The notes below the pieces were generated by a model. It searched no databases, was not told where the DNA came from, and was given only the letters and a program-made list of their open reading frames with translations. Below are positions 15,803 to 31,690 of a stretch of DNA of 33,834 bases, piece after piece. A program made the position numbers and the translations under genes. Each line of letters begins with the position of its first letter. Within the stretch, counting starts at the first letter, position 1. The stretch is taken from the NCBI GenBank assembly GCA_013214205.1, contig JABSPQ010000162.1, positions 1 through 33,834 on the forward strand, in the 5' to 3' direction. This DNA comes from Flavobacteriales bacterium (GTDB lineage: Bacteria; Bacteroidota; Bacteroidia; DT-38).

Positions 15803-15830
15803 GGGCAGGTATCTTTCTCTAGCGTTCGCG

Positions 15831-16045
15831 TTTTTGTATGATGAAAACATTTAGTGCTTTATTTACATGTTTTCAGTATAATAAAATAAGTGTGTAGTTT
15901 TTTTCTGTTTTCAGTATAATGAAAATAACAAAAGAATATATTGCATATTTTCAGTATGATGAAAATAATAAAAGAATACATTGCATGTTTTTAGTATAAT
16001 GAAAACTTTTAGTAATTTAGAACAAATATTCAGTATGGAATCAAC
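15831..16045 (+). repeat. About 40-bp tandem repeat array entering the ATPase gene
   Basis: Five cores of the form TTTTCAGTATAATGAAAA lie at 15831-15847, 15870-15886, 15908-15925, 15948-15965 and 15988-16005. Their starts are 39, 38, 40 and 40 bases apart. A decayed sixth core (TTCAGTATGGAA) follows in phase near 16029. Each core is an imperfect dyad, TTTTCA opposite TGAAAA. Two complete spacers are nearly identical (AAAAGAATA, then TTGCAT). Most cores contain ATG followed by AAA, so several false or alternative starts are present. Confidence 0.85.
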
Positions 16046-17234
16046 GTTTGTTAGAAAAAGATACCTAAATAAAGTAAAACCCTATATAGGGAAAGGCATT
16101 ATTAAAGTGCTTACAGGGCAACGTAGAGTGGGGAAAACCACCCTGCTTAGGCAAATAATGGAATTGATTCTTAAAGAAAACAAAAAGACCAATACCATAT
16201 ATATCAATAAAGAGCACAATGAATTTAAGCACATAAAAGTTGCGGAAGATTTATTTAAATACGTTAAATCTAAACTGTCTAAGAGTAAACCGAATTGTGT
16301 ATTTATTGATGAAGTACAGGAAATAGAAGAGTTTGAAGTTGCATTAAGACAACTATTAGTCGAAGGAATTGATATCTACTGTACAGGCAGCAATGCCAAT
16401 ATGCTATCTGGCGATTTGGCCACACATCTATCAGGCCGGTACATCGAATTTCATATAAATAGCCTGTCTTTTAGCGAATTCTTACAAATACATAAATTAG
16501 AAAACGATTCAGATGCTCTCAATAAGTTTATTCGATATGGTGGTTTACCTTATCTAATTCATTTGCCATTCGACGATGAAATAGTTTATGGCTACCTCAA
16601 AAGCATTTACAATACCATTATTCTTAAAGACATCGTGTCCAGATATAACATAAGAGATATCGACTTTTTAGAGCGTTTGGTAGAATACATGTCTGATAAC
16701 CTTGGGAGCTACGTTTCATCAAAAAAGATCAGTGATTTTTTAAAAGCGCAAAGAGTAAGCTTGTCTGTAAACACAGTAATGAACTACTTGAAATATCTAA
16801 CCAATTCATTTTTTATCAATAAAGTGCAACGGCTAGATATTATTGGAAAGAAGCGATTTGAAATAAATGATAAATACTTCTTTTCAGATCTGGGATTAAA
16901 GCATTCTATCATTCCGTTTACTGGCGAGCAAATAGGGCAGGTGTTCGAAAACTTAGTGTACAACCATTTGATTTGCCAAGACTACGAAGTGTTTATAGGG
17001 AAGCATCAGGATAGAGAAATTGACTTTGTGGCTCAAAAGGGAAATGAAACGAAATACATCCAGGTTGCTTACTTACTCCCCAATAAAAAAGTAAGAGAAA
17101 GAGAGTTTGGGAACTTGCTGAAAATTGAAGACAACTATGAGAAAATAGTGGTTTCGGCAGATGAATTTTCAGAAGATTTTAAAGGAATTAAGCATATTCA
17201 TATCAGGGAGTTTCTTGCCAATGAAGATTTTTAA
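15999..17234 (+). CDS. AAA ATPase with DUF4143 domain
   Basis: About 411 residues if started at the ATG at 15999, 399 from the ATG at 16035; the conserved part begins at MESTFVRKRYL, so the later start is equally likely. Both Met codons lie within the tandem repeat. Walker A is GQRRVGKT (28-35 from the later start), Walker B is CVFIDEVQE, and sensor-like CTGSNANML follows. The C-terminal DUF4143 domain carries VFENLVYNHL, EIDFVAQKG and YIQVAY, a PD-(D/E)xK-like nuclease fold that often lacks the catalytic lysine. These ATPases are common, mobile and poorly understood in Bacteroidota. No partner is visible. It does not fit the sugar pathway and probably entered this spot together with its repeats. 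Confidence 0.9.
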   Translation: MKTFSNLEQIFSMESTFVRKRYLNKVKPYIGKGIIKVLTGQRRVGKTTLLRQIMELILKENKKTNTIYINKEHNEFKHIKVAEDLFKYVKSKLSKSKPNCVFIDEVQEIEEFEVALRQLLVEGIDIYCTGSNANMLSGDLATHLSGRYIEFHINSLSFSEFLQIHKLENDSDALNKFIRYGGLPYLIHLPFDDEIVYGYLKSIYNTIILKDIVSRYNIRDIDFLERLVEYMSDNLGSYVSSKKISDFLKAQRVSLSVNTVMNYLKYLTNSFFINKVQRLDIIGKKRFEINDKYFFSDLGLKHSIIPFTGEQIGQVFENLVYNHLICQDYEVFIGKHQDREIDFVAQKGNETKYIQVAYLLPNKKVREREFGNLLKIEDNYEKIVVSADEFSEDFKGIKHIHIREFLANEDF

Positions 17235-30389: not shown

Positions 30390-31595
30390 ATGAGCTTAAA
30401 ACAAACATGGAGGTGGTACGGTCCCAAAGACCCCGTAAGCTTAATAGACGTTAAGCAAGCTGGCGCAACAGGTATTGTAAGCGCCTTACACCACGTACCA
30501 ATTGGTGCCGTTTGGACAGTTGAAGAAATCTCTGAAAGAAGAAACATCATAGAACTAAACGGACTTAAATGGTCGGTTGTAGAAAGTGTACCCGTTCACG
30601 AAGACATTAAAACAAACACAGGCCGCTGTGCAGAATACATAGATAACTACATTACCACAATCCAAAACCTAGGTGCCTGCGGAATCAAAAACGTGTGCTA
30701 CAACTTTATGCCCGTGTTAGATTGGTCGAGAACCGATTTAAAATATGAGGTGGAAGATGGTTCGGCCGCATTGCGATTTGAAGTTAAAGCGTTTGCCGCA
30801 TTCGATCTATTTATACTAAAACGCCCAGGTTCCGAAAACGAATACAGTAAACAAGAACAAGCAGATGCAAAGGCATACCTCCAATCAAGATCGGAAGAGC
30901 AGATAGAAGACCTACTAAAATGTGTGTTAATGGGACTTCCTGGAGGAAATGAAGCATTTACATTAGAAGGGTTGTTAGCTGCAATTGCCAAATACGACAA
31001 CGTAGACGATAAAGCATTAAGAAAAAATCTGAACACATTCTTAAACAGAATAGTACCCGAAGCGATAACTGCTGGTGTATTACTTGGTATTCACCCAGAC
31101 GACCCACCTAGACCATTGCTTGGTTTACCTCGAATTGTGAGCAACCTACAAGACGCACAAGAAATAATTGCTGCATACGATTCGCCCAACAATGGTATTA
31201 CTTTTTGTACTGGTTCGTTCGGTGCAAGCCTTCAAAATAATCTACCTGCCATGGTTAGAGCAATAGGACATCGCATCAACTTTATTCATCTTAGAAGTAC
31301 GGAAAGTGATGTTGAAGGAAACTTTCATGAAGCCAATCATTTAGAAGGAGACGGCGATATCGTAAACGTTATTTACGAATTGGTAAAATTAGAAGACAAA
31401 AGAAAAGAAGAAGGAAGAGCCGATTTTAGCATTCCAATGCGTCCAGATCATGGGCACTTGATGCGAGGTGATGCCAATAAGAAATCGAATCCGGGATATT
31501 CGGGAATAGGTAGATTAAGAGGCCTAGCGGAAATCCGAGGAGTAGAAGCGGGAATTAGACGCGTCCTCCGAAGCCTTGGCGAAGGAGGAAATTAG
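30390..31595 (+). CDS. uxuA: Mannonate dehydratase UxuA
   Basis: A 401-residue enzyme, a little over the usual 394. It dehydrates D-mannonate to 2-keto-3-deoxygluconate, using a divalent metal. Clear family stretches are WRWYGPKDPVSL (7-18), HHVPIGAVW, VCYNFMPVLDWSRTDL (about 102-117), LGIHPDDPPRPLLGLPRIV, CTGSFGA, FIHLRS, MRPDHGHLM, and the end GRLRGLAEIRGVEAGIRR. The last eight or so residues (RSLGEGGN) are encoded by a hairpin repeat and look like an addition to the normal end. The next 58 bases repeat this coding end imperfectly. It lies upstream of kdgK in the plus-strand catabolic unit, joining the glucuronate branch to KDG. Confidence 0.96.
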   Translation: MSLKQTWRWYGPKDPVSLIDVKQAGATGIVSALHHVPIGAVWTVEEISERRNIIELNGLKWSVVESVPVHEDIKTNTGRCAEYIDNYITTIQNLGACGIKNVCYNFMPVLDWSRTDLKYEVEDGSAALRFEVKAFAAFDLFILKRPGSENEYSKQEQADAKAYLQSRSEEQIEDLLKCVLMGLPGGNEAFTLEGLLAAIAKYDNVDDKALRKNLNTFLNRIVPEAITAGVLLGIHPDDPPRPLLGLPRIVSNLQDAQEIIAAYDSPNNGITFCTGSFGASLQNNLPAMVRAIGHRINFIHLRSTESDVEGNFHEANHLEGDGDIVNVIYELVKLEDKRKEEGRADFSIPMRPDHGHLMRGDANKKSNPGYSGIGRLRGLAEIRGVEAGIRRVLRSLGEGGN

Positions 31596-31648
31596 AGGAG
31601 TAGAAATGGGGATAAGACGTGTCCTCCGAAGCTAGAGCGAAGGAGGAA
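31537..31648 (+). repeat. 58-bp tandem duplication over the uxuA stop codon
   Basis: Unit 1 is 31537-31594 (last part of uxuA) and unit 2 starts at 31595 with the same GAGGAGTAGAA; GTCCTCCGAAG is at 31563 and 31621, GCGAAGGAGGA at 31579 and 31637. Period is 58 throughout. Each unit ends in a family E hairpin (TCCTCCGAAGC ... GCGAAGGAGGA), with different loops, CTTG and TAGA. Confidence 0.88.
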
Positions 31649-31690
31649 AATGCAGTCACTTAAGTAATTTTAAATTAAAAATAAGACAAA

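Follow-up and report, generated by a model that had tools for sequence, protein, structure and literature searches.

A tandem dyad array running into the start of a DUF4143 ATPase gene of the PDC-S01 type is probably the operator of that gene

Controller (C) proteins of restriction-modification systems are self-encoded DNA-binding proteins with sites at their own promoters. Orc1/Cdc6 and DnaA are AAA+ initiators that act at repeated boxes near their own genes and offer a further comparison for autoregulation. In toxin-antitoxin autoregulation, a self-encoded DNA-binding protein likewise acts at its own promoter (PMC12255303). The defence repressor RptR silences its own promoter by binding direct repeats, arranged in series, whose cores are palindromic; full repression needs two of them (PMC12255303). 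PDC-S01, a phage defence candidate, reportedly ranks fourth in frequency among the defences of prokaryotes, and most candidates of this kind still await experimental validation (PMC12988326). The accessible text of the literature searched, with subscription papers and preprints outside its scope, held no account of cognate arrays at DUF4143/PDC-S01 genes, and no autoregulated AAA ATPases were found in that literature.

Here, we analyzed a stretch of 33,834 nucleotides from a Flavobacteriales bacterium (contig JABSPQ010000162.1 of assembly GCA_013214205.1; hereafter, the window), in which a DUF4143 ATPase gene adjoins an array of dyads. The gene and the parts of its product that are predicted to read DNA are as follows.

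16035 to 17234, + strand: AAA_14 plus DUF4143 ATPase gene, 399 aa, PADLOC PDC-S01 (open reading frame, Pfam, PADLOC)
16656 to 16889, + strand: predicted winged-helix domain, residues 208 to 285 (AlphaFold2 model)
16767 to 16805, + strand: predicted recognition helix, residues 245 to 257 (AlphaFold2 model, covariation)

Two Pfam domains, AAA_14 (PF13173; E value of 1.6e-31) and DUF4143 (PF13635; E value of 2.7e-17), were found in the window protein, which matched PDC-S01 (PDLC04787) over its whole length (E value of 1.5e-142). An AlphaFold2 model generated from the window protein aligned with 44 orthologs (pLDDT, 88.3; pTM, 0.89) has winged-helix helices at residues 209 to 221, 229 to 238, and 245 to 257, with wing strands between 261 and 283. 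As read from the modelled secondary structure, the order of the domains appears to be AAA+, a three-helix winged helix, and a PD-(D/E)XK-like C terminus. Fold matches of the model were of a general AAA+ character (i.e., NLR resistosomes, Orc1/Cdc6 on origin DNA, and MuB), and 2qby_A and DnaA were weak structure or profile matches to the ATPase. In the segment YIQVAY, QVA takes the place of the ExK of the PD-(D/E)XK motif. The corresponding Q343 is invariant in 45 orthologs, and ExK is present in 63 of 111 other DUF4143 members. Because of this replacement, nuclease activity of the window subfamily is doubtful. Retention of the PD-(D/E)XK fold without ExK is a trait of the subfamily, and membership in PDC-S01, which is assigned by domain, is unaffected.

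Dyads related to TTTTCAGTATAATGAAAA begin at six positions that lead into the gene, with start-to-start intervals of 40, 38, 40, 40, and 39 bp. The outermost unit is degenerate, and the innermost is a half-site.

15830 to 15847, + strand: unit 6, degenerate dyad GTTTTTGTATGATGAAAA (sequence; repeat family D1; a weak third unit is alike in several orthologs)
15870 to 15887, + strand: unit 5, dyad TTTTCAGTATAATAAAAT (pattern match, two mismatches)
15908 to 15925, + strand: unit 4, dyad TTTTCAGTATAATGAAAA, the reference (Tandem Repeats Finder, pattern search)
15948 to 15965, + strand: unit 3, dyad TTTTCAGTATGATGAAAA (Tandem Repeats Finder, pattern search)
15988 to 16005, + strand: unit 2, dyad TTTTTAGTATAATGAAAA, counterpart of the full -48 core of orthologs (pattern search, orthologs)
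16027 to 16044, + strand: unit 1, half-site TATTCAGTATGGAATCAA, including the start codon at 16035 to 16037 (sequence; half-core 92% identical among ten close orthologs)

The initial annotation had described five or six dyad units that run into the gene at a spacing of 38 to 40 bases, and both its coordinates and its spacing were right. It had also proposed nearly four helical turns per unit with all dyads on one face. At 10.5 bp per turn, 40 bp corresponds to 3.8 turns (32 bp to 3.05 turns and 21 to 23 bp to 2.0 to 2.2 turns), so neighbouring dyads are offset by about 70 degrees and do not lie exactly on one face.

We searched the window with TTTTCAGTATAATGAAAA, allowing up to three mismatches, and compared the result with 100 shuffles. 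Matches on the + strand were located at 15870, 15908, 15948, and 15988, and three of these sites also matched on the - strand because they are dyads. The seven matches over four units compare with 0.18 expected by chance, and none of the 100 shuffles gave seven. Tandem Repeats Finder reported a period of 40 at 15908 to 16005 (89% matches; score, 161). Because the units at 15908 and 15948 have their spacers in common, they look like a recent tandem duplication. At up to two mismatches, the core matched nowhere in the complete 5.1-Mb genome except at the array, and a search of 395 Bacteroidota genomes for the exact double-core pattern yielded the window locus alone. A single regulon spread over the genome was rejected, since the core is restricted to the array locus within the genome. 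A 15-nt inverted pair (14 of 15; 15807 to 15821 and 16052 to 16066) brackets the array, possibly by chance, as one arm is coding. Elsewhere in the window, a separate tandem repeat at 31529 to 31649 (58 bp, 2.1 copies, 84% matches) overlaps the end of the open reading frame at 30390 to 31595.

The array reaches into the start of the gene, and both candidate start codons fall inside units, as had been annotated. These two ATGs, in frame and 36 nt apart, are at 15999 to 16001, within the unit at 15988, and at 16035 to 16037, within the last half-unit. The start at 16035 is the conserved one, because the half-core TTTCA(T/C)T, directly followed by the ATG start codon, is kept in the ten closest orthologs. 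Four other orthologs (L076, L077, L087, and L090) start in the ATGAAAA half, at a position equivalent to 15999. The ATGs inside units 4 and 3 (15908 and 15948) lead to frames that are closed by a stop codon inside the array or immediately beyond it.

The Bacteroidota -7 consensus is TAnnTTTG. Of 52 orthologs, 27 carry it no more than 60 nt from the start, compared with 28 of 169 controls. The layout shared by the ten closest orthologs consists of the full core (-48 to -31), a -7 box resembling TAnnTTTG (at -23), and the half-core ending in the start codon; in orthologs, the sites lie on either side of the box. The window's own box is imperfect.

16013 to 16020, + strand: putative -7 box TAATTTAG, one mismatch to TAnnTTTG (TATATTTG and similar sequences at the equivalent place in orthologs)

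Across 84,980 species genomes, 62 loci encoding relatives were found. The ortholog records belong to Bacteroidota, Spirochaetia, Clostridia, Melainabacteria, and one Patescibacteria genome, although single record titles need care because most are metagenome bins. Among the ten closest orthologs (76 to 86% identity), pairwise identity was 0.84 for the full core, 0.92 for the start half-core, and 0.68 for the following coding sequence, and that of the upstream spacer (0.33) was at the level of far upstream DNA. The difference in identity between the cores and the rest was matched by 0 of 10,000 column permutations. A period of 39 or 40 was chosen by 41 of 52 orthologs from a free range of 30 to 47, and an independent test with plain 16-mers (free range, 28 to 50) also favoured 39 to 41. 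In distant orthologs, the dyad sequence differs between genes yet repeats within each gene, as in the following cases.

L080: repeated dyads TTTTACATATAAGTAAAA with TTTTACTTATGAG
L107: repeated dyads TTTCGACTATACTCGAAA with ATTCGACTGTAGTCGAAA
L094 and L095: repeated dyads CGTTCATTATAATGAACA with TGTTCATTGTAATCAACA
L081: repeated dyads AAGCATACTTAA with AAGTATACTTAA

Orthologs have two or three units, and many genes only two sites, versus five or six units in the window; the start remains in the last unit. The absence of the core at homologous ATPase genes had been named in the initial annotation as grounds for refutation. The exact core was found in close orthologs and another dyad with equal spacing in distant ones, so the proposal withstood this check, in a richer form than had been foreseen. 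As a separate observation, the Patescibacteria ortholog (UBA6164; L090, 2983 to 4194) is open only when TGA is read as glycine (code 25; 20 TGA codons), and the dyads of its start region, TTTTCAATATAATAAAAA and TATTCACTATGATGAAAA, are nearly as in the window and 39 bp apart.

Arrays are also common in the wider family. We scored the upstream regions of 110 Bacteroidota DUF4143 genes for tandem repeats with periods of 20 to 48; single palindromes were outside this systematic count. Arrays exceeded shuffles (P of 0.01 or less) in 48 of the 110 regions, and about half of the sampled genes lacked a significant tandem array. The same threshold was passed by 1 of 111 coding regions and by 7 of 109 regions farther upstream, two of the latter being extensions of long arrays. 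A score of at least 12 was reached by 48 of 110 DUF4143 genes, 15 of 165 other genes, and 37 of 52 orthologs of the window gene. The periods of the DUF4143 arrays were 21 to 25 (14 genes), 32 or 33 (31 genes), and 36, 43, or 44 (3 genes), with none at 26 to 31, whereas those of controls were scattered. When mapped on a FastTree phylogeny of 159 proteins, the spacing classes of about 22, 32, and 40 bp required 4 changes (the least possible being 2), compared with a mean of 34.2 for shuffled classes, of which 0 of 200 were as low as 4. The 40-bp class, which was assigned from DNA alone, forms one side of a branch with a support of 99, on a tree whose method readily joins long branches and whose orthologs were collected as relatives of one gene. 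Spacing held by clade while the sequence is free is what would be expected from subunit geometry.

The genome of the window carries two more DUF4143 genes with arrays, and its three arrays all differ in sequence. The second gene (L002; contig C111, 19655 to 20629, - strand) has about seven upstream units of 32 bp (TGTTTTTxxAGCATTCAATTCCTTAAATATTA), close matches to which (zero or one mismatch) are confined to its own array. The third (L171; contig C43) has a 33-bp array, AGTCCATTGTATT...ATGTAC, of about six units. Long arrays of 7 to 11 units were found at L002 and L031. By eye, arrays were also seen at plasmid-borne relatives from Treponema, Ruminococcus, Sulfitobacter, and Peptoclostridium, and one long palindrome beside the start codon was seen instead of an array at DUF4143 genes on plasmids from Moraxella, Runella, Granulicella, and Thermus (L197, L189, L195, and L196). 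Tandem arrays were weak or absent in most relatives on viral contigs. DUF4143-type ATPase genes tend to cluster (flanks of L069, L082, L086, and L116), and a 33-bp repeat of its own accompanies the one near L104:4870.

The variable dyads allowed a comparison with the protein. For 34 orthologs, we related operator half-site similarity to identity in each 13-residue window of the protein after removal of overall identity. The best of 387 such windows was 244 to 256, i.e., the modelled recognition helix, with N246 and K253 as the best columns; its value was reached by 0 of 2,000 permutations, a procedure that ignores relatedness. Among 13 representatives with less than 65% identity, 244 to 256 was still best, with modest support (196 of 5,000 permutations reached it); with the near clade left out, 282 to 294 ranked slightly above it. 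The operators in these comparisons were chosen by eye, and an automatic choice gave I232, K335, N246, K253, and S244 as the first five columns. This covariation is good but not final support for the view that the ATPase itself may read the dyad.

We consider it probable that the array is a multi-site operator, i.e., that the array is occupied by the product of the gene it precedes, which would thereby repress its own promoter. The dyads, their spacing and conservation, the concerted change of their sequences, the dependence of spacing on clade, and the covariation with the recognition helix are observed; that the ATPase itself binds, that it represses, and that ATP or a trigger releases it are what we infer. 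Each 18-bp dyad would be read by the ATPase as a dimer or a higher oligomer, through the winged helix located between the AAA+ and C-terminal PD-(D/E)XK-like domains, and side-by-side packing of subunits on DNA would set the 40-bp spacing. The last full site would lie over the -33 region, and the half-site would lie over the transcription and translation start. Occupied sites would shut the promoter, because these two sites enclose the putative -7 box. Such negative autoregulation may hold down the level of an ATPase that could be costly, until release of the complex, which may depend on its nucleotide state or a signal. The long arrays of some relatives, however, exceed the needs of simple repression. 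The initial annotation had suggested an autoregulatory array bound by the ATPase or its partner. Spacing, concerted evolution, and helix covariation argue for the ATPase, whereas a partner is unlikely as the binder, given the lack of a conserved neighbour.

Alternatively, the array could be the working platform, similar to iterons or DnaA boxes, of an ATP-dependent AAA+ oligomer whose real job is to sense invading DNA, mark self DNA, or serve mobility, with autoregulation as a by-product. This would suit the arrays of 7 to 11 units at L002 and L031, the regular spacing held by protein clade, the fold matches to Orc1/Cdc6 on origin DNA and to NLR resistosomes, and the presence of family members on plasmids and viral contigs. 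We nevertheless regard it as unlikely, because ortholog sites are fixed over the putative promoter and start codon and two sites suffice in many genes. In an equally unlikely reading, DUF4143/PDC-S01 ATPases would be switches of an NLR- or Orc-like type that form a spaced nucleoprotein, dependent on ATP, along their own array, and this array would act as the sensor of a defence or addiction system made up of one gene. If the complex were displaced, either because a phage takes over the DNA or because the array is lost, the promoter would open and the protein would be armed, and the subunit geometry of each clade would set the spacing of about two, three, or four turns.

If a different regulator, either a partner or a host factor, bound the array, the ATPase gene would be a mere target. 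Over 55 loci, no conserved neighbour gene was found, and the only notable recurrent neighbours were other ATPases of the DUF4143 type, seen at four loci. Covariation of the dyad with the recognition helix of the ATPase itself, a different array at each DUF4143 gene of one genome, and spacing that tracks the ATPase tree also make such a regulator improbable. Least credible of all is an element acting at the RNA level through leader hairpins, or a slippage-prone switch in which unit number alters the starts, as had been proposed at the outset. Being a dyad, each core could form a hairpin, the predicted fold of the array as a whole is slightly better than that of shuffled sequences (z score of -2.0), and two units were apparently duplicated recently. 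However, most of the array would be untranscribed, because the putative promoter sits between the last two units. The array had no Rfam match, and with folding barely above that of shuffles, an RNA element was rejected. The switch found no support: the last unit retains the start codon, the surplus units precede the putative promoter, and the ATGs of the units at 15908 and 15948 give frames ending within or just after the array.

Under self-repression by the ATPase, a candidate cognate site at many PDC-S01 genes would provide a cheap, concrete handle, i.e., a target, a control, and reading residues. The link between spacing and clade, together with matched operator-helix pairs, would constitute a natural set for the study of coevolution between winged helices and their sites. 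If these proteins are mainly self-controlling DNA-binding ATPases, the label "defence nuclease" needs review in subfamilies without ExK.

The window protein resembles PDC-S01 in matching it over its full length, the difference being that in its subfamily QxA stands in the position of the ExK seen in many relatives. Among the described defence repressors on direct repeats that we found, RptR is the nearest, and the window array is likened to it, from its sequence, in putative self-repression through repeated palindromic sites. As a separate protein of small size, RptR acts on 9-bp repeats and a single conserved site, whereas the DUF4143 arrays have 18-bp dyads at a spacing of 21 to 45 bp and a gene-specific site, and the presumed effector is itself the putative binder. 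In contrast to toxin-antitoxin systems and C proteins, the DUF4143 regulator and presumed effector would be one polypeptide, with no conserved second gene. Orc1/Cdc6 and DnaA share with it an AAA+ domain plus a DNA-binding domain and repeated dyads adjoining their own genes. Unlike in these initiators, the DUF4143 site is private to each gene, and the protein carries an extra C-terminal PD-(D/E)XK-like domain.
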